Assembly: GCA_040757695.1 (NCBI GenBank)
Contig: JBFLWK010000009.1
Span: forward strand, 1-61,714
Source of the DNA: Elusimicrobiota bacterium
Lineage (GTDB): Bacteria > Elusimicrobiota > UBA8919
Direction of reading: 5' to 3'
Length of the DNA: 61,714 nt
Shown here: one piece after another, positions 32,875-57,610 of the stretch
How the letters are laid out: each line of letters begins with the position of its first letter
How positions within the stretch are numbered: the stretch's first letter is position 1
Made by a program: the position numbers and the translations under genes
The notes under the pieces: generated by a model
Told to the model about the DNA's origin: nothing
Databases searched by the model: none
The model's input: the letters and a program-made list of their open reading frames with translations, nothing else

Positions 32875-33629
32875 AATATTACAAATATCACGAACGGAAA
32901 TATCAAAGTCTCAGAAGAGAAGGGAAAAAAAGATGGCAAGTATCACTTATAAAACCATTTACAGAGTTTCTATTGTTTCACAGGCTGCTGCCAAAATCAA
33001 AGGTTCTTGAACTTGGCTGTGGAACAGGTGATATTTCGTTTTCTTTTGCTCGTAGAGGATTTGAAGTGACAGGAGTAGATATTTCACCGACTGCTATTAG
33101 GATGGCTAAAAAAAGAGCAAAAGAAAAAGGACTAAAAGTAAAATTTGTTGTTGGTGATGTTACTAAACTGAAAGGGTTTTGTGATAACTATTATGATTTG
33201 GTTTTGGACGGTCATTGTCTTCATTGTCTTGTTTGGCAAGAAGACCGTCAAGGATTCTTAAAAAATTCTCTAAGAGTGCTAAAACCAGGTGGTTACCTTG
33301 TAGTCAACACAATGGCAATGCCGCCACGGAAATATGTGGACAAATATAGAAATGAATTTATCCTTCAAAAAGGGATCCAACTTGATAAAAATGGTCGTGC
33401 GTGGATAGTAGTCGGGAAAACACAATTTGCTTTACCTATTCGTTATACAGGGTTTAAGACTGCACTGCTCAAAGAAATTAGAAATGCTGGGTTCAGAATT
33501 CGTAAATGGATATACCAAAAAGAACCTGAAGGACCCGAAGTTTGTCGCCTTATAGTATATGGTGAGAACTGTGAGAACTGTGCCAGCTGTGAGAACTGTG
33601 CCAGACTTGAAATTTTCAAATTATTGTAA
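32871..33629 (+). CDS. class I SAM-dependent methyltransferase
   Basis: 252 residues. The SAM site is VLELGCGTGD (45-54) with GVDIS and FVVGDVT after it, then LDGHCLHCLVW and LKPGGYLVVNTMA, a typical class I small-molecule or protein methyltransferase. The substrate is unknown. The last 21 residues (ENCENCASCENCAR...) come from GAACTGTGA repeats and form a cysteine-rich tail that looks like readthrough into inserted repeat DNA. The start overlaps the stop of the HTH-M23 gene. Confidence 0.88.
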   Translation: MKYYKYHERKYQSLRREGKKRWQVSLIKPFTEFLLFHRLLPKSKVLELGCGTGDISFSFARRGFEVTGVDISPTAIRMAKKRAKEKGLKVKFVVGDVTKLKGFCDNYYDLVLDGHCLHCLVWQEDRQGFLKNSLRVLKPGGYLVVNTMAMPPRKYVDKYRNEFILQKGIQLDKNGRAWIVVGKTQFALPIRYTGFKTALLKEIRNAGFRIRKWIYQKEPEGPEVCRLIVYGENCENCASCENCARLEIFKLL

Positions 33630-34260
33630 GCAGAAAGTTTCCAAAATTGCTTATTTTCTCCATCGGTTAATATCAAGATACCCCGAACAAGTTCGGGACT
33701 CCAGTGCATACCGGAATCCTCTGCTTGTAGGGAACAGGCATGCCTGTTTCCTACAGTAAACTTCTGTGCAAGATGAAAAAAACTGATACTATAGATAGTG
33801 ATAAAAAATATATGCAACTGGCTTTACAACTTGCTAAAACAGGCATCGGAAAAGTAAGCCCTAACCCGATGGTCGGCTGTGTAATTGTAAAAAATGGAAA
33901 AATTGTTTCAACCGGTTATCACAAAAGAACTGTGCCAGACTTGAAATTTTCAAATTATTGTAAGCAGAAAGTTTCCAAAATTGCTTATTTTCTCCATCGG
34001 TTAATATCAAGATACCCCGAACAAGTTCGGGACCCCAGTGCATGCTGGAATCCTCTGCTTGTAGGGAAAAGGCATGCCTGTTTCCTACAGTGAACTTCTG
34101 TGCAAGATGAAAAAAACTGATACTATAGATAATGACAAAAAATATATGCAACTGGCTTTACAACTTGCTAAAACAGGCATCGGAAAAGTAAGCCCTAACC
34201 CGATGGTCGGCTGTGTAATTGTAAAAAATGGAAAAATTATTTCAACCGGTTATCACAAAT
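33593..34260. repeat. 334-bp tandem duplication covering the 5' end of ribD
   Basis: Copies are 33593-33926 and 33927-34260, both starting GAACTGTGCCAGACTTG. By eye about eight bases differ. Each contains repeat hairpins (for example AACAGGCATGCCTGTT flanked by GTAG...CTAC) and the first 51 codons of ribD. Confidence 0.93.
33773..34093 (+). pseudogene. truncated duplicate of ribD 5' end
   Basis: The ATG at 33773 begins MKKTDTIDSDKKYMQLALQL and matches RibD through STGYHK (51 codons). The frame then runs into the second copy's intergenic repeats and stops at 34093. The duplication unit (334 bp) is not a multiple of three, so the copy cannot fuse to the intact gene. The deaminase active site (HAE, PC..C) is absent. 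Confidence 0.88.
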
Positions 34261-35180
34261 ACTTGGGAGGTTCGCATGCGGAAGTCAATGCCTTGAAGAA
34301 CTACAAAAACCTAAAAGGTGCAACAATGTATGTTAATCTGGAACCGTGCTGCCATTACAACAAGAAAACACCGCCTTGCGTTCCACTTATAATCGCAGCA
34401 GGCATAAAAAAAGTTATTATTGCCATGAAAGATCCGAATCATGCGGTGGCGGGTAAAGGGATAAAACAACTTATAAAAAACAATATAAAATGTAAAGTCG
34501 GGGTCTTGAAAAACGAAGCGGAGAAATTAAACGAAAAATATATCAAATATACAAAAACGAAAATTCCTTTCGTAATTCTTAAAATGGCGTATTCGCTGGA
34601 CGGTAAAACGAAAACGGAAAACGGCGATTCTAAGTGGATAAGCTGTGAAAAATCAAGAAACCTCGTCCATAAAATAAGAAGCGAGGTTGATGCTGTTCTG
34701 GTCGGTATAAACACGGTATTAAAAGATAATCCGTATCTCACATCGCACGGCAGCGGAAAAAATCCTGTAAGGGTTATACTGGATACAAACTTGAAAATCC
34801 CTTTTAGTTCAAATGTGCTGAACAATGCGGCTGAAACAATAATTGCAACTTCTAAAACATCAAATAAACAAAAAAAAGCAAAACTTAAAAAGGCTGGTAT
34901 AAAAATAATTGAGATGCCTGTAAAAAATAACCTTATTGACCTGAGAAAATTTCTTATTGAACTTGGGAAACGGCAGATTTCGTCGCTGCTAGTTGAAGGC
35001 GGTGAAACTGTTGCCAACTTTTTTCTTAAACAAAAACTGGTTGATAAAATTGTGTTTTTTATCTGCCCCAAAATAATCAACGGTTTTTCAAAAATGAACC
35101 AAGTATTAGAAATTAAAAACATATCTGTAAAAAAAATCAAAAATGATTTACTATATGAGGGCTATTTAACGACAAGTTAA
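34107..35180 (+). CDS. ribD: bifunctional diaminohydroxyphosphoribosylaminopyrimidine deaminase / reductase
   Basis: 357 residues. The N-terminal deaminase has H57-A-E59 and the zinc cysteines in EPCCHYNKKTPPC (about 79-91). The C-terminal reductase has LKMAYSLDGKT, WISCEKSR, VDAVLVGINTVLKDNP and LLVEGGETV. It catalyses the second and third steps of riboflavin synthesis. The start is the ATG at 34107; the 11 codons before it belong to the duplicated repeat region. ribE, ribBA and ribH follow after two inserted genes, and the FMN riboswitch is upstream. Confidence 0.96.
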   Translation: MKKTDTIDNDKKYMQLALQLAKTGIGKVSPNPMVGCVIVKNGKIISTGYHKYLGGSHAEVNALKNYKNLKGATMYVNLEPCCHYNKKTPPCVPLIIAAGIKKVIIAMKDPNHAVAGKGIKQLIKNNIKCKVGVLKNEAEKLNEKYIKYTKTKIPFVILKMAYSLDGKTKTENGDSKWISCEKSRNLVHKIRSEVDAVLVGINTVLKDNPYLTSHGSGKNPVRVILDTNLKIPFSSNVLNNAAETIIATSKTSNKQKKAKLKKAGIKIIEMPVKNNLIDLRKFLIELGKRQISSLLVEGGETVANFFLKQKLVDKIVFFICPKIINGFSKMNQVLEIKNISVKKIKNDLLYEGYLTTS

Positions 35181-50209: not shown

Positions 50210-50688
50210 AAGAAAAATCAACAAATTATCAAAAAGCACAAAAATATGCTTTCTGGCTGTTAGCCAGACGAAATCATTCTGAAAAGGAAATACGAGAAAA
50301 AATCGGAAGAAATTATGACGAAAACGTTGTTGAAAAAGTAATAGAAAAACTAAAAATTCTGAAACTGATAAATGATGAAAAATTTGCAAAAGAATGGACT
50401 GAATATCGTTTAAGAAATAATAAGAGTAAAAATTTTATACTGCGGGAACTTAACAGAAAAGGTATAACACATGAAATGGCTGCTACTATATTAAACTCGT
50501 TTTCAATAGATGAAACGGAAGTAGCATACAAGATAATAAGAAATAAACTTCCAAGATATAAAAAACTTGAACCGCTGAAAGCAAAAAATAAAATATACCA
50601 ATTTCTTACAAGGAAAGGATTTGATTACGATACCATTGAACAGGTTGTAAATAGATTAGGAAAGGAGAATTCAGATGAGACCGATTAA
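50200..50688 (+). CDS. recX: regulatory protein RecX
   Basis: 162 residues from the ATG at 50200, which overlaps the previous stop. AQKYAFWLLARRNHSEKEIREKI, LKLINDEKFAKEWTEYRL and ILRELNRKGI show the three-helix repeats of RecX, which modulates RecA filaments. No recA is in the window. It overlaps purH by 14 bases. Confidence 0.88.
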   Translation: MAIKEKSTNYQKAQKYAFWLLARRNHSEKEIREKIGRNYDENVVEKVIEKLKILKLINDEKFAKEWTEYRLRNNKSKNFILRELNRKGITHEMAATILNSFSIDETEVAYKIIRNKLPRYKKLEPLKAKNKIYQFLTRKGFDYDTIEQVVNRLGKENSDETD

Positions 50689-52219
50689 AACTACATTAAT
50701 AAGCGTATCCGACAAATCAGGAATTATTGAGTTTGCAAAAGCATTACAAAAACAAAATGTAAAAATCATCTCAACTGGTGGTACTGCAAGAATCCTAAAA
50801 GATGCTATGATTCCAGTCGTGACGGTTGATGAAACAACTGGCTTCCCGGAAATTCTTGATGGTAGGGTAAAAACTTTACATCCTAAAATCCATGCAGGTA
50901 TTCTTGCAAAAAGAACCAAAAAACATCTTACCGAGTTAAAAAAACTTGGTATAGATACGATTGATATGGTTGTTGTCAATCTTTATCCATTTGAACAAAA
51001 ACCTTCTATTGAAAACATAGATATTGGCGGAGTTGCTCTTCTTCGTGCAGCAGCAAAAAATTTTGAGAATGTAGTAGTGGTCTGTGATCCGACAGATTAT
51101 TATCACATTATCGCTAATATGAAAATGGGAAAAATAGATTTTGTATTCAGAAAACAACTTGCAGCAAAAGCGTTTAGGCATATTGCATATTATGACGCTG
51201 TTATTTCCAATTTTTTTACAGATGAACCTTTTCCTGAAAAAATATCAATTGGACTTAAAAAACTTCAAGAACTGCGATACGGCGAAAATCCACATCAGAA
51301 AGCAGTAATATATCAGAAGTCACCCGCCTGCCATCAGTCGGGCAGGGAAGTCAGAAGTCAGAAGTCAGAAATAAAACAATTACAAGGGAAAGAACTTTCG
51401 TATAATAATTATTTAGATTTAGATTCTGCATTTAATCTTGTTTGTGAATTCCAAAAGCCATCATGTGTGATTGTAAAACATAACAACCCTTGCGGGGTTG
51501 CAACCGCTAAAACTATCTTTAATGCATACAAAAATGCACTCGCTTGTGACCCTGTATCTGCATTCGGTGGAATTGTTGCCTTCAATAAAACTGTTGATGT
51601 AGAAACTGCAAAAAAAATAATAAAAATCTTTACAGAATGCGTAATCGCACTGAATTATTCAAAAGATGCGCTAAAAATATTTTCTCAGAAACAGAATTTA
51701 CGTGTTTTATCTTTTCGTGTTTCCGCAAACACGAAAAGTTCAATATGTGGGTTTCGCAGTGTATTCAATGATAAAATACTTGTTCAAGAAAGAGATAATA
51801 AAATTTTTGATAAATTAAAAATTGTGACAAAAAGAAAACCAACAAAACAGGAATTGGAATCATTAAAATTTGCTTTTACCGTCGCAAAACATGTAAAATC
51901 AAATGCTATTGTTCTTGTTAGAGGCACTCAAACGGTAGGTATCGGTGCAGGTCAAATGTCCAGAATAGATGCCCTGCATATAGCAACCATGAAATTGAAT
52001 TCAATCCCCAATCCCCAATCCCCAATCCCCAATCTCTCTTTGGTTCTTGCTTCCGACGCTTTCTTTCCATTTCGTGATGTCGTTGATGCGGCATCAAAAA
52101 TCGGTGTCGGCGCGATAATTCAGCCTGGTGGCTCGCTTAACGATAAAGATTCAATCAAAGCATGTAACGAGCATAAAATTTCAATGGTATTCACAGGAAT
52201 ACGTCATTTCCGACATTAA
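50675..52219 (+). CDS. purH: bifunctional AICAR transformylase / IMP cyclohydrolase
   Basis: 514 residues, AAGGAG upstream. The IMP cyclohydrolase domain (TTLISVSDKSG, ISTGGTARIL, FPEILDGRVKTLHPK) precedes the AICAR transformylase (QLQGKELSYNNYLD, KHNNPCGVATA, DPVSAFGGIVAFN, ASDAFFPFRD, QPGGSLNDK, VFTGIRHFRH). It carries out the last two steps of IMP synthesis. Three repeat-coded insertions interrupt it: residues about 214-232, 346-355 and 443-453. All keep frame and avoid the catalytic blocks. A second copy of its final 19 codons lies at 53551. Confidence 0.97.
   Translation: MRPIKTTLISVSDKSGIIEFAKALQKQNVKIISTGGTARILKDAMIPVVTVDETTGFPEILDGRVKTLHPKIHAGILAKRTKKHLTELKKLGIDTIDMVVVNLYPFEQKPSIENIDIGGVALLRAAAKNFENVVVVCDPTDYYHIIANMKMGKIDFVFRKQLAAKAFRHIAYYDAVISNFFTDEPFPEKISIGLKKLQELRYGENPHQKAVIYQKSPACHQSGREVRSQKSEIKQLQGKELSYNNYLDLDSAFNLVCEFQKPSCVIVKHNNPCGVATAKTIFNAYKNALACDPVSAFGGIVAFNKTVDVETAKKIIKIFTECVIALNYSKDALKIFSQKQNLRVLSFRVSANTKSSICGFRSVFNDKILVQERDNKIFDKLKIVTKRKPTKQELESLKFAFTVAKHVKSNAIVLVRGTQTVGIGAGQMSRIDALHIATMKLNSIPNPQSPIPNLSLVLASDAFFPFRDVVDAASKIGVGAIIQPGGSLNDKDSIKACNEHKISMVFTGIRHFRH
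51313..51369. repeat. GTCAGAA tract with nested hairpin inside purH
   Basis: CAGAAGTCA is followed by a hairpin (GCCTGCC...GGGCAGG) and then GTCAGAAGTCAGAAGTCAGAA. It looks like a hairpin inserted into a heptamer tract. Confidence 0.75.
51711..51738. repeat. perfect 12-bp hairpin inside purH
   Basis: CTTTTCGTGTTT, loop CCGC, AAACACGAAAAG. It is translated as LSFRVSANTKSS in the transformylase domain. Confidence 0.85.
52003..52030. repeat. (AATCCCC)4 heptamer tract inside purH
   Basis: Four perfect copies of the 7-bp unit, encoding IPNPQSPIPN before the conserved ASDAFFPF block. Confidence 0.9.
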
Positions 52220-52231
52220 AGTTAATTCTTT

Positions 52232-52261
52232 ACAGATTACTCAATATTTTGAGTAATCTGT
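52232..52261. promoter_or_regulatory. perfect 13-bp dyad abutting the ATPase promoter
   Basis: ACAGATTACTCAA and TTGAGTAATCTGT pair around a 4-base loop and end on the first T of the -35 box. There is no T-run after the arms, so it is a candidate operator as well as a possible purH transcript end. Confidence 0.55.
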
Positions 52262-52289
52262 TGACATTTAGAAAATAATTTTGTATTAT
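52261..52289 (+). promoter_or_regulatory. leaderless promoter of the AAA ATPase
   Basis: TTGACA, exactly 17 bp, TATTAT, then six bases to the ATG at 52296, so +1 would be the A of the start codon. Confidence 0.75.
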
Positions 52290-52295
52290 TGAACT

Positions 52296-53522
52296 ATGAA
52301 AAAATATATCCGTAAACAGTTATATGACGAATTATGGAAGGCATTAACAGGAAAGATTAATTTGATTCAAGCGGTAATCGGCCCTAGACAGGTTGGTAAA
52401 ACTACGCTGGCTTTACAGATATTTGACAATTGGAAATATCCAAAAATTTACGAAACAGCCGATCAGCCAAATATACCTACAGTTAGCTGGATAACTGATA
52501 AATGGCAGAATGCAAGAAATTTATGTAAAAAAACCAAACAACCCGTGCTATTAATTTTAGATGAAGTTCAAAAAATTCCAAAATGGAGCGAAGTTGTAAA
52601 AAAATTGTATGATGAAGATAAAAGATTACATAATAATAATCATGTTTTATTATTGGGCTCATCGGCACTATTGATGCAGCGCGGATTAACAGAGAGTTTG
52701 GCTGGCCGCTTTGAATTACACAGGCATAATCAATGGTCTTTTTCTGAATGTAAAGAATGTTTTTCATTAAGTTTAGATGAATATATTTATTTCGGTGGAT
52801 ATCCTGGGGCGCTTTTATTAATTGAAGATGAAAACAGATGGGCAAATTATATGCGGGAATCACTTATTGAACCAGTGTTATCAAAAGATATAATTCTATC
52901 TACACCCATTACGAAGCCTGTACTGATGAGACAATCGTTTGGATTAGCTGTAAATCATGCTGCACAGATTGTGAGTTATCAGAAAATGCTTGGCACATTA
53001 CAGGACGCCGGCAACACTACAACCATTGCCTCATACCTCAATTTAATGTCTAAGGCATTTCTTTTAACACCGTTAGAAAGATGGAGCGGTGCAAGAATAA
53101 GGAGAAGAGGGTCTATTCCTAAAATATTAGTATATGATAACGGGTTGAGCACCTCTATGGCTGGAGTGAAATTCAATACAGCCAAAAAAGATAAAATGTT
53201 TTGGGGACGATTGGTTGAAAATTCTATTGGTGCAAGATTGTATTTTATTTTTAACAAGTTGGGAGGCGAGATATATTACTGGCGAGAAAGGAACAACGAA
53301 GTTGATTATGTGACAAGATTAGGAGATAAAATAATAGGATTTGAAATTAAATCAGGTAGACTTGATAAAAATCCTGCTGCGTTATTATTATTTAAAAGAA
53401 AATATAAAAATTCAAAAACTGTAATTATATCCAATTCAAAAGAGCTAACAGTTAATTCTGAAAAAAACATAAATATAAATGAATTTTATAAGAATCCCGA
53501 AAAATATATTATTGAACTTTGA
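52296..53522 (+). CDS. AAA ATPase of the DUF4143 type
   Basis: 408 residues. Walker A is IGPRQVGKTTLA (about 29-40), Walker B is LLILDEVQKIP (about 86-96), and LLLGSSALLMQRGLTESLAGR is a typical sensor region. The C-terminal part (YYWRERNNEVDYVTRLGDKIIGFEIKSG) carries the DUF4143 nuclease-like E-V-D...E-x-K pattern. These ATPases are abundant and patchy in bacteria and archaea; their role is unclear. The ATG sits six bases after the -10 box, so the message should be leaderless. It lies between the two purH 3' ends. Confidence 0.92.
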   Translation: MKKYIRKQLYDELWKALTGKINLIQAVIGPRQVGKTTLALQIFDNWKYPKIYETADQPNIPTVSWITDKWQNARNLCKKTKQPVLLILDEVQKIPKWSEVVKKLYDEDKRLHNNNHVLLLGSSALLMQRGLTESLAGRFELHRHNQWSFSECKECFSLSLDEYIYFGGYPGALLLIEDENRWANYMRESLIEPVLSKDIILSTPITKPVLMRQSFGLAVNHAAQIVSYQKMLGTLQDAGNTTTIASYLNLMSKAFLLTPLERWSGARIRRRGSIPKILVYDNGLSTSMAGVKFNTAKKDKMFWGRLVENSIGARLYFIFNKLGGEIYYWRERNNEVDYVTRLGDKIIGFEIKSGRLDKNPAALLLFKRKYKNSKTVIISNSKELTVNSEKNININEFYKNPEKYIIEL

Positions 53523-53550
53523 ACGCTGACAGAATGACATAATCTCTGCC

Positions 53551-53607
53551 TGCAACGAGCATAAAATCTCAATGGTATTCACAGGTATGCGTCATTTCAG
53601 ACATTGA
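53551..53607 (+). pseudogene. second copy of the purH 3' end
   Basis: 57 nt encoding CNEHKISMVFTGMRHFRH plus stop, matching the end of PurH except one Ile to Met. No homology is visible upstream of 53551, so it is a remnant without a start. It lies just after the ATPase gene and 16 bp before the MFS gene. Confidence 0.88.
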
Positions 53608-53622
53608 AAACGATAAGATGTT

Positions 53623-54948
53623 ATGGACAACTATAAATTAAACCAGCATCCTGTAAAACGAAGTTTAAGATATTCATTCATAGATGGTTGTTTTTTCTCT
53701 GTAATGTTTGGGTTTGGTGATACATATTTGAATCCTTATATCATCGCATTAAAAGCAACACCACAAGAAGTTGGTCTACTCACATCATTACCGGGGTTCG
53801 CTTCAAGCATTCTTCAATACAAGACACCAGATATCACAAAACTTTGGGGTAGAAAAAGAACAATGGTGACATCTGTGTTTCTTCATGCATTGATGTGGCT
53901 ACCGATACTTTTAATACCATTTATATTTCAAACAAAACTTGCATTATGGTTAGTCGGTTTCGTTACGCTTTATACTATGTTTACAGGTTTAGGTGGACCG
54001 GCATGGGCAAGTATAATGACACAATATATTCCTAATCAATCAAGGGGGAAATATTTTAGTTTCAGAAACAAATGGCTTGGTAGTATTACGCTAATTTCAA
54101 GTTTTATTGCTGGTATAATTCTATGGCTGATGAATAAAAAAAGTATTTATGGCTTCACAATAATTTTTTCAATAGCGTTTCTGTGCAGGTTCATAAGTTG
54201 GTATTTTATTACAAAATATTACGAGCCCAAGATACATACTCCAAAAGAGGCAGAATTTGGATTAAAAGATTTTTTGATACGATTCAAAGAAAGCAATTTT
54301 GTTAAGTTTGTGTTATATGTTGCATTCACTTCTTTTGCTGTTTATTTAGCTGCACCGTTTTTTGCTGTATATATGTTGAGAGAACTGAAATTTGATTACT
54401 TATCGTTTGTAGTTATAAATACAACTTTGACAATCACTATGTTACTTACACTATCAACCTGGGGAAATCATGCTGATAAAGTTGGCAATATGTCGGTAAT
54501 ACGACTTGCTGGCTTTATGTTACCATTTTTACCTGTGTTATGGCTTTTTTCTACATCAAAAATATATCTTGTTTGTATAAATGCATTGGCAGGTTTCGCA
54601 TGGGCTGGGTTCAATCTCGCTGTCTCTAATTTCATTTTTGATGCTGTATCTCCAGAAAAACGTGTTCGGTGTATATCGTATTTTAACCTGATAAACGGTA
54701 CAGGAGTATGTCTTGGTGCGTTAATAGGCGGGTTTGTAATACCTCATCTACCTCAAACTTTTGGAAGTAAGATTCTAACAGTATTTGTAATTTCTGGTAT
54801 TTTAAGATTTGTTGCTCAAATAACTTTACTGCCTAAAGTAAAAGAAGTGCGGAAAACAGTATCTGTAAAAAGTAAGGACCTCTTTTTCAGTGTGCTTGGC
54901 ATAAAACCAATTATCGGTATCCCACAAGATACTATAAGAATTGAATAG
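53623..54948 (+). CDS. major facilitator superfamily transporter
   Basis: 441 residues with about 12 hydrophobic segments. YKTPDITKLWGRKRTMV after the second segment is the usual MFS loop 2-3 motif, and a loop near residue 285 (GNHADKVGN) is its counterpart in the second half. The substrate cannot be told from sequence. It has no strong ribosome site. It may have followed purH directly before the ATPase element arrived. Confidence 0.88.
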   Translation: MDNYKLNQHPVKRSLRYSFIDGCFFSVMFGFGDTYLNPYIIALKATPQEVGLLTSLPGFASSILQYKTPDITKLWGRKRTMVTSVFLHALMWLPILLIPFIFQTKLALWLVGFVTLYTMFTGLGGPAWASIMTQYIPNQSRGKYFSFRNKWLGSITLISSFIAGIILWLMNKKSIYGFTIIFSIAFLCRFISWYFITKYYEPKIHTPKEAEFGLKDFLIRFKESNFVKFVLYVAFTSFAVYLAAPFFAVYMLRELKFDYLSFVVINTTLTITMLLTLSTWGNHADKVGNMSVIRLAGFMLPFLPVLWLFSTSKIYLVCINALAGFAWAGFNLAVSNFIFDAVSPEKRVRCISYFNLINGTGVCLGALIGGFVIPHLPQTFGSKILTVFVISGILRFVAQITLLPKVKEVRKTVSVKSKDLFFSVLGIKPIIGIPQDTIRIE

Positions 54949-54976: not shown

Positions 54977-57610
54977 ATGTACTTTATGACCACGAATGAA
55001 ATCAGGAAGAAATTCCTGAAATTTTTTGAGACTAAAAACCATACAATTTTTAAGAGCGACTCGCTTGTGCCTTCATCAGACCCGACACTACTTTTTACAA
55101 TTGCAGGAATGGTACAATTCAAAAATTATTTTCTCGGGACACAGAAACTAAAATCAAAATACCAGAGAGCATCATCGGTCCAGAAATGTTTCAGAACTTC
55201 AGATATAGAAAAGGTAGGATATACAAAGAGGCATCTAACATTTTTTGAGATGCCTGGTAATTTCTCTTTTGGTGATTATTTCAAAAAAGAAGCGATTGAA
55301 TGGGCTTGGGAATTTTTGACAAAGGAGTGCGGCATTAATGCCGCACTACTGTATGCAACCGTCTATAAAGATGACGATGAAGCATTTACAATCTGGCAAA
55401 AAATTATTTTAAAAGAAAAAATTGTAAAATTAAAAGAAGACACAAATTTCTGGGAAATGGGAGATACAGGTCCTTGTGGACCTTGCTCTGAAATTTTCTA
55501 TGATACCGGTATTGAAAACAGTTGTGGAAAGCCAACCTGTGGTCCTGGTTGTGATTGCGATAGATTTATTGAAGTATGGAATCTTGTTTTTACACAATTT
55601 GATAAACAGCCCGATGGCACACTTAAAAATCTTCCTCAAAAAAATATAGATACTGGTATGGGTCTTGAAAGACTTACAGCTATAATTCAGAATGTTAATA
55701 CATTTTTTGAAACTGATGAGTTTATAAAAATTATAGATTTTATTGAAAACATTTCAAATAATAAAAATGATGTTTCAACAAAAATTATTGCTGATCATTG
55801 CCGTGCAATCACACTTCTTATTTCTGATGGGATTCTGCCTTCCAATGAAGGAAGGGGTTATGTCTTAAGAAGAGTTCTAAGAAGAGCATTAACTCATGGA
55901 AGGAAACTAAATCTTGTAAAACCTTTTCTCTACAAAATCTGTGGAGAAGTTATTGGGATAATGAAACAAGTATATCCCGAATTGATTTCTCATCTGGAAT
56001 ATATAGCACGGGTTGTAAAAATGGAAGAAGAAAAATTTCTACAAACACTTGAACATGGTATAGAGATTCTTGAGGACTTGAAGAAAACGAAACAAAAAAT
56101 TTCCGGAAAAGATGCGTTCGTTTTATACGATACTTACGGCTTTCCACTTGATTTAACAAAAGAACTTCTGGCTGAATCCGAAATTTTTATAGATGAACAA
56201 GGATTTGAAGAAGAAATGGCGAAACAAAAAACTCGTTCTAAAACTGCCTGGAAAGGTTCAGGAGATAAAGATATGGGTAATTATTATGAACTTCAAAAAA
56301 AATTCGGGAACACTGTTTTCAAAGGTTATGATGAAACAAAAATTACAACTGAAATTGTTGCAATTGTAAAATATGGGAAAGTAGTTGATACTGCAAAAGA
56401 AAACGATACTGTTGAAATTATTCTGAAAGAAACACCTTTTTATGGTGAGAGCGGTGGACAAGTGGGAGACACCGGCAAATTAAAAATTAAAAATGAAAAA
56501 TTAAAAATTGAAAACGAAGCGGAAATTGTTGATACGCAGAAACCTGTTGAAAATCTTATAATTCATAAGGCAAAAATAGTGAAGGGTATTTTGAAAACTG
56601 ATGATACTGTTGAAGCAGAAATTGATGAGACCAGACGACAAAATATAATGAGAAATCATACCGCAACACATCTTTTGCATAAGGCATTAAGAAAAATTGT
56701 TGGAACACATATTGTTCAACGGGGTTCACTTGTTGCTGATGATAGGCTCAGATTTGATTTCTCTCATCCGGCACAACTTAAAAAAGAAGAACTGGATTTG
56801 ATAGAAAAATATGTTAATGAAAAAGTTTTAGAAAACTTAAAAATTACAACAAAAATCACAACGGTAGATGATGCCAAAAAAATAGGTGCGATGGCTCTGT
56901 TCGGTGAAAAATACGGCGAGAAAGTTCGCTGTATAACTATCGGCGAGGAATCATCACCTGAAAGTATAGAACTCTGTGCAGGAACCCATTGTAAATCAAC
57001 CGGTGAAATGGGGCAGCTTATAGTTTTATCAGAAAGCAGTATCGGTAGCGGTTTGCGGCGAATAGAAGCAATTACCGGAATCTCGGCATACAACTTTATG
57101 AAAAACCAGCGGGAAACGATTGACGAAATCGCAGAGATATTGAAATCATCCAGAACAGAAATTATTCCGAAACTTCAAAAACTATCAGACGATAAAAAGA
57201 AACTTGAAAAGGACGTTTCCAAAATGCCAAAAATACAAGAAAACGATTTGCTAAAAAATATCAAAGAAATCAGCAATGTAAAACTGCTAGCTGTAAAAAT
57301 AGAAACATCAGCCATAGATGAAATGAGAAGCATTTCAGACAATCTGAAAAACAAAATCAAATCGGGCATTGTGGTATTGGGTTCTGTTATTGACGACAAA
57401 CCGACGATAATTGTATCTGTTACAAAAGACCTCACGGCTAAATTTGATGCACGGAATATAGTGAAAGAATTATCAAAGATTATCGGTGGTGGCGGCGGTG
57501 GCAGGTCTGATATGGCACAGGCAGGTGGAAAAGATGTCTCAAAACTAGACGAAGCAATTGCATCAGTTGAAAAGATAATAAGAACGAAACCACAGATGAA
57601 CCCCCGATAG
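54977..57610 (+). CDS. alaS: alanyl-tRNA synthetase
   Basis: 877 residues, normal for AlaRS. The N-terminal class II catalytic core (PTLLFTIAGMVQFKNYFLG, FEMPGNFSFGDYFK, WEMGDTGPCGPCSEI) is followed by the editing domain (HTATHLLHKAL; CAGTHCKSTGEMG) and the C-terminal GGGGGGRSDMAQAGG block. Two repeats are built in: a 22-bp palindrome with CTAC foot (residues about 117-124) and an AAAAATT tract (residues about 500-513) before the editing domain. The start could also be the ATG at 54986. Confidence 0.97.
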   Translation: MYFMTTNEIRKKFLKFFETKNHTIFKSDSLVPSSDPTLLFTIAGMVQFKNYFLGTQKLKSKYQRASSVQKCFRTSDIEKVGYTKRHLTFFEMPGNFSFGDYFKKEAIEWAWEFLTKECGINAALLYATVYKDDDEAFTIWQKIILKEKIVKLKEDTNFWEMGDTGPCGPCSEIFYDTGIENSCGKPTCGPGCDCDRFIEVWNLVFTQFDKQPDGTLKNLPQKNIDTGMGLERLTAIIQNVNTFFETDEFIKIIDFIENISNNKNDVSTKIIADHCRAITLLISDGILPSNEGRGYVLRRVLRRALTHGRKLNLVKPFLYKICGEVIGIMKQVYPELISHLEYIARVVKMEEEKFLQTLEHGIEILEDLKKTKQKISGKDAFVLYDTYGFPLDLTKELLAESEIFIDEQGFEEEMAKQKTRSKTAWKGSGDKDMGNYYELQKKFGNTVFKGYDETKITTEIVAIVKYGKVVDTAKENDTVEIILKETPFYGESGGQVGDTGKLKIKNEKLKIENEAEIVDTQKPVENLIIHKAKIVKGILKTDDTVEAEIDETRRQNIMRNHTATHLLHKALRKIVGTHIVQRGSLVADDRLRFDFSHPAQLKKEELDLIEKYVNEKVLENLKITTKITTVDDAKKIGAMALFGEKYGEKVRCITIGEESSPESIELCAGTHCKSTGEMGQLIVLSESSIGSGLRRIEAITGISAYNFMKNQRETIDEIAEILKSSRTEIIPKLQKLSDDKKKLEKDVSKMPKIQENDLLKNIKEISNVKLLAVKIETSAIDEMRSISDNLKNKIKSGIVVLGSVIDDKPTIIVSVTKDLTAKFDARNIVKELSKIIGGGGGGRSDMAQAGGKDVSKLDEAIASVEKIIRTKPQMNPR
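55326..55349 (-). repeat. REP-like palindrome inside alaS
   Basis: AGTGCGGCATT/AATGCCGCACT is a perfect 22-bp palindrome, and the CTAC following it gives a GTAG foot on the minus strand. Confidence 0.8.
56477..56510. repeat. AAAAATT tandem tract inside alaS
   Basis: Heptamer-like AAAAATTAAAAATG units encode KLKIKNEKLKIEN. The same word occurs in the intergenic region at 59144-59170. Confidence 0.85.

Follow-up and report, generated by a model that had tools for sequence, protein, structure and literature searches.

The stretch of DNA analysed here (the window, 61,714 nucleotides) is contig 9 of 264 in the 2.89 Mb genome (G000) of an Elusimicrobiota bacterium. Within it an intact purH is followed on the same strand by a gene for an AAA_14-DUF4143 ATPase, a second copy of the purH 3' end, an MFS transporter gene and alaS (Table 1). 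Besides the ATPase gene, the interval from purH to the MFS gene contains no second sizeable open reading frame, and the insert between the two purH ends holds no integrase gene, as the first-pass annotation had remarked. The arms of a dyad (52232-52244 and 52249-52261) also lie in this interval, and a TTGACA box (52261-52266) is separated by a 17-bp spacer from TATTAT (52284-52289). Because TATTAT ends 6 bp before the ATG of the ATPase gene, the leaderless promoter proposed earlier is plausible.

Table 1. Features of the purH locus in the window. G005 and G008 are related genomes.
Feature	Position	Strand	Basis
purH, AICAR transformylase / IMP cyclohydrolase; intact target gene	50675..52219	+	Pfam AICARFT_IMPCHas and MGS
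Joined purH 3' end (U copy), presumably incoming	52160..52219	+	88-90% to 53548-53607, synonymous differences
Perfect dyad, 13-bp arms ACAGATTACTCAA / TTGAGTAATCTGT, overlaps -35 box; candidate operator or terminator	52232..52261		minus-strand self match
Sigma70-like promoter TTGACA-17-TATTAT, directly 5' of ATPase start codon	52261..52289	+	sequence
Cargo AAA_14-DUF4143 ATPase, 408 aa	52296..53522	+	Pfam
Displaced purH 3' end (D stub), in-frame open to stop; presumably resident	53536..53607	+	
MFS transporter gene; missing from purH-alaS junction of G005 and G008	53623..54948	+	
alaS, ancestral downstream neighbour of purH	54977..57610	+	adjoins purH directly in G005 and G008

The last 19 codons of purH had been reported to occur twice, and comparison of 52163-52219 with 53551-53607 bears this out: there are six nucleotide differences, which affect five synonymous codons (the TAA/TGA stop included) and exchange one Ile for Met. 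Taken over 60 bp the copies differ at seven positions, and the longest identical run is 17 bp. A BLAST search of the whole genome with the purH tail gave one further copy, at 53548-53608 (89% over 61 bp, E 5.9e-16), and at the peptide level the match reaches back to 53536 (DIISACNEHKISMVFTGMRHFRH versus DSIKACNEHKISMVFTGIRHFRH). Other repeats in the window include two in-frame, repeat-like insertions within purH itself, at 51318-51372 and 52000-52035 (TCAGAAG repeats; CCCCAAT repeats), and a tandem duplication of about 330 bp at 33597-34258. The latter takes in the upstream region of a ribD-like gene (34065-35180) with its initial ~62 codons, is 95% identical at the protein level, and constitutes a gene-start stub with no cargo.

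The window ATPase scores 83 bits against AAA_14 (cut-off 27) and 86.3 bits against DUF4143 (cut-off 28.1) in Pfam, with a Walker A motif GPRQVGKT and a Walker B motif LLILDE. Across seven divergent DUF4143 ATPases the residues E308, D337, E350 and K352 are invariant besides those of the AAA+ ATPase, and as a sequence pattern E308, D337 and E350-x-K352 in the C-terminal domain resemble a PD-(D/E)XK nuclease. In a structure model this domain has the order alpha-beta-beta-beta-alpha-beta, which fits the core of that superfamily, at moderate confidence (pLDDT 66.6), and the top Foldseek matches are AAA+ proteins only. Judged from the motif and the model, nuclease activity of the ATPase is plausible; nothing in the data requires it for the insertion. 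A scan of viral contigs gave no relative, and solved structures gave no sequence relative.

The purH neighbourhood was compared in eight related genomes, seven of the same family and one of the same order. In G005 and the outgroup G008 the site is empty, with alaS directly after purH, and alaS was found in all eight family genomes. The first-pass annotation had expected purH to lie directly before the MFS gene in relatives; the insert is indeed absent from G005 and G008, but the gene that follows is alaS, and since neither genome has an MFS gene between purH and alaS, the MFS gene is also an addition. The same-family genome G004 carries purH, a DUF4143 ATPase gene, a second purH end, a different small ORF and alaS. 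Its purH is 74% identical to that of the window and its ATPase 21% identical to the window ATPase, and we regard it as an independent second event; with different ATPases beside a purH-end copy in the two genomes, the purH end has been struck two times or more. Only in G000 and G004, each of which has a DUF4143 ATPase there, was a further purH tail found on the contig that carries purH. The second purH match in G002 is a longer purH fragment on a separate contig. In G007 (L223, G007:C275, 150-836) purH and alaS are separated by a gene with ERCC4-type nuclease and helix-hairpin-helix domains, and a stretch of 41 N at the end of purH precedes this gene. At the native recX locus G006 has a broken purH, of which the initial 121 codons are left (L224, G006:C61, 173-580), its intact purH adjoining purL on another contig. 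Beyond the family, a phylum-wide search for purH tails was uninformative because many genomes have two purH genes. No donor genome with this purH end and the ATPase was found, so that the foreign origin of the joined purH end is something we infer.

DUF4143 genes and their flanks were collected from the window genome, its family and the phylum, giving 133 distinct loci, and a repeat was counted when a match of at least 40 bits linked the 700 bp before the gene with the 700 bp after it. Direct flanking repeats were present at 30 of 133 ATPase loci, compared with 6 of 160 other ORFs from the same loci (Fisher P 1e-6), while inverted flank repeats at this threshold were found at none of the 133 and none of the 160. 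Control genes from the same genomes gave 6/28 for Fic, 5/29 for AlbA_2 and 0/25 for MFS. As the rates for Fic and AlbA_2 equal that for the ATPase, the phenomenon belongs to the acquisition of mobile single genes and not to the ATPase; comparable positions are occupied by Fic, AlbA_2, methyltransferase and AbiE genes, and perhaps by ERCC4 genes. Further DUF4143 genes with duplicated gene ends, which the first-pass annotation had suggested looking for in the same genome, exist in other genomes, but none of the six others in the window genome has such a duplication. Two of its DUF4143 ATPase genes lie in tandem, without end duplications (G000:C60 10003-11790; L035, L036).

About a dozen of the 30 repeats are clear 3' or 5' gene ends, with the full gene on one side of the cargo and a stub on the other. 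They include ends of purH (in two genomes), of phoR, of a 309-aa gene, of an FtsJ-like gene and of a gene with an AcrB-type domain, a beta-barrel-like and a LolA-like end, and 5' ends of a Gfo/Idh-like gene and a glycosyltransferase gene (the names LolA, Gfo/Idh and beta-barrel are our own reading of the sequences). The orientation was direct in 25 of 26 cases. Repeat lengths were about 30-190 bp and stubs about 50-130 bp, and the repeats are gene ends, not attC-like. Four loci with dispersed or non-coding repeats (L060, L159, L097, L046) were left out of the gene-end set, as was L160, where two full pilin-like genes share a common N-terminus. At L310 (G034:C9, 8182-10108) an AbiEi/AbiEii-like pair is preceded by the end copy and followed by the full gene, which is short and perhaps DUF3024, and then by a DUF4143 ATPase, an atypical, reversed order of stub and full gene.

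ATPases that are 85-97% identical between genomes almost always have unrelated neighbours, which indicates that the gene is highly mobile and that each stub derives from the present neighbour. Within the genus g30 the site is empty in G183, holds the ATPase without a stub in G056 and holds the ATPase with a stub in G163; in aligned 60-bp blocks of G056 and G163, the ATPase is mostly ~90-98% identical and the adjacent gene mostly ~70-90%.

Several loci contain more than one cargo. The best case is the pho operon of G338 (L300, G338:C34, 10939-14546), with the order phoR, ATPase, phoR end, methyltransferase, phoR end, Fic, phoR end, porin, pstS, pstC. Three cargos are accompanied by four phoR ends, each cargo being followed by a phoR end of 113-130 bp, and the three stubs have left edges no more than ~20 bp apart. 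In G210 a barrel-like gene end is followed by an ATPase, the end again and Fic, and in G157 several AlbA_2 and ATPase genes stand in a row, again with repeated ends. In a public Omnitrophica MAG (L306, one of three loci given by a single-protein scan) the ATPase is surrounded by three copies of one gene end. The purH insertion is one example of a process that recurs with many targets and many cargos and includes arrays.

The way in which the copies differ bears on their origin. In all cases compared the stubs are open frames and the differences mostly synonymous. Across seven comparisons there were 19 amino-acid differences, compared with 47.5 expected for duplication followed by neutral decay of the stub, and none of 2000 simulations gave so few. 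For the window purH pair alone the synonymous excess gave P = 0.10 in what is a weak test, with the stop codon left out; for the G004 purH pair, in which the stub has the consensus peptide, P was 0.014. This coding-type divergence indicates that, for the most part, the joined and the displaced copy were functional gene ends while they evolved in separate genomes, as the first-pass annotation had proposed for purH, and it supports the related proposal that the incoming piece brought its own purH end, the joined copy being the one that is probably foreign. The copies of the phoR pair match without exception over the inner 77 bp, and their 17 differences are confined to the outer 55 bp (P 3e-7). 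This is the mosaic expected if resident sequence is present twice up to a crossover, beyond which the joined copy is foreign. A clear identity block of this type was seen in one pair only.

The reading that we favour, and consider somewhat probable, is a repeated, homology-anchored capture of a gene end together with a cargo, with a non-homologous joint beyond the cargo and the resident end left as a stub. The donor DNA would have carried the ATPase gene and the end of the donor purH. That end would recombine by homology with the resident purH, which would keep a full working end that is now the donor's, and the far side, just past the ATPase stop, would be joined without homology inside the resident purH end, so that the last ~57-72 bp of the resident would be left beyond the ATPase as a dead stub. 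Homology-facilitated illegitimate recombination (HFIR) could be the route, or a template switch out by homology and back without it; this uptake route, and the role of host recombination rather than the cargo in doing the work, we infer. Repetition at the same gene ends would create hotspots and then arrays in which the gene is followed by a cargo, an old end, a further cargo and a still older end. Each cargo is a single gene of mobile type (DUF4143 ATPase, Fic, AlbA_2, methyltransferase, AbiE), and several come with a promoter of their own. A joint inside the resident end leaves a stub and one beyond it leaves none, which would explain the absence of stubs at most mobile genes.

Against this one-sided model, the stub often begins 4-45 bp after the cargo stop codon, which is tighter than random joining predicts, and the edges of the phoR stubs are closely placed. 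Such compactness speaks for something more active than one-sided joining. Repeated passage with selection for an intact cargo could trim the tails, and so could a dedicated system. Nor does the model account for the recurrence of ends of 50-130 bp. Another misfit is L071 (1-83, 1338-1419), where an identical 36 bp of promoter region stands before and after the ATPase but the ABC-transporter gene starts that follow it are diverged, the reverse of the usual mosaic.

The compactness of the cargos, whose tails measure 4-45 bp in several events, the end copy after every cargo in arrays, the phoR stub edges and the diversity of cargos are what would be expected of a gene-end cassette system, in which an unrecognised recombinase acting in trans inserts and excises compact single-gene cassettes at gene ends. 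We consider this unlikely: no common junction motif is apparent by eye, the targets are unrelated in sequence, no integrase was found in the inserts examined and stub lengths vary from about 50 to 130 bp. Just as unlikely is its alternative form, in which a circular cassette is integrated by RecA with the gene end as homology arm (Campbell-type); it predicts divergence on both sides of the crossover and not a 77-bp identical block. In its broader sense the idea is doubtful: these bacteria, and perhaps other candidate phyla, might have an unrecognised cassette system for which gene ends are docking sites, with stacking as at the G338 phoR, each cassette being a copy of a host gene end plus one compact mobile gene that docks without harm to the host gene.

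A homing mechanism is more doubtful still. Here DUF4143 proteins would be ATP-dependent nucleases that cut purH ends lacking the insert, which would then be copied in with its own purH end, as for the mobile ORFs (mORFs) of fungal mitochondria, whose geometry is the same (PMC3630166). The PD-(D/E)XK-like residues and fold order of the C-terminal domain are consistent with this, as is the fact that the end of purH has received, in different genomes, two DUF4143 genes of divergent sequence and perhaps an ERCC4-family nuclease gene. The site is not fixed, however, the near-identical ATPases L081 and L084 (92%) lying at different genes, and the flanks of Fic and AlbA_2 show the same repeats at the same rate. 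On these controls homing specific to the ATPase was dropped.

Single-gene transposition with a long target-site duplication, the copies having since drifted, is very unlikely as a general explanation. It would account for the near or fully identical flanks at some loci (L097, 62 bp, 100%; L173, 162 bp, 97.5%; G163, 94%) and for the new neighbours each time, but stubs made in this way should decay as pseudogenes, and the amino-acid changes are far too few. The confinement of all phoR differences to the outer 55 bp is also against it, no terminal inverted repeats were noticed (the flanks of the 133 loci contain no inverted repeat of 40 bits or more, a threshold that short repeats would escape), and no constant duplication length was noticed. 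A simple long target-site duplication was rejected for the G004 purH and for phoR because of the coding constraint and the mosaic; at single loci it could still hold. Finally, although most or all of the sequences appear to be MAGs, an assembly artefact or a chimera in the metagenome bin is scarcely credible, since the copies are diverged rather than identical and like structures occur in many genomes, including the public Omnitrophica MAG.

Homology-anchored capture of gene ends thus looks like a general way for these bacteria to gain genes without breaking a neighbour. The stranded, still-coding fragment of a neighbour's end would be a readable scar of gene gain without an integrase or transposase, one that dates and orients transfers, shows which genes were acquired in this way and can be searched for in any genome. 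It would also explain the fast relocation of single defence-like genes in these genomes and show how a housekeeping gene can stay intact when insertions strike its end.

Integrative and SCC elements that enter gene 3' ends also regenerate the target end and can accrete in tandem. They depend on a site-specific recombinase and on a conserved core, neither of which is seen at the purH insert. The likeness to integration at tRNA gene ends drawn by the first-pass annotation accordingly extends to geometry only: there is no integrase or perfectly conserved core, the targets are unrelated in sequence, both 3' and 5' ends are used and the stub edges are variable. Closer in form are the mORFs, in which a foreign carboxy-terminus is found in Allomyces atp6 and in Glomus atp6, atp9, cox2 and nad3 (PMC3630166). 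There, as here, a new end is fused in frame, the native end is displaced beyond the inserted gene and the copies differ mainly synonymously, the foreign copy at purH being presumably the joined one. The mORF insert, however, is a LAGLIDADG or GIY-YIG homing endonuclease that drives insertion (PMC3630166), whereas the cargo here is a DUF4143 ATPase, Fic, AlbA_2 or others, the setting is bacterial chromosomes and 5' ends are used too. HFIR resembles our cases in that incoming linear DNA is homologous at one end and makes an illegitimate joint at the other (PMC3240628), and the 77-bp block of phoR likewise marks a homologous junction on one side only. HFIR has been described in laboratory selections with competent bacteria and in conjugation of E. 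coli (PMC3240628); the literature searched gave no case of single genes stacked recurrently at gene ends in nature, and the one paper in it that mentions DUF4143 is unrelated. The orphan toxin-immunity modules of Rhs loci (PMC3967940) offer a further parallel, in that a conserved gene receives a new 3' part and older 3' parts, singly or in series, are displaced downstream. Rhs tips change the protein (PMC3967940), whereas here the peptide encoded by the new end is almost unchanged and the cargo forms a gene of its own.
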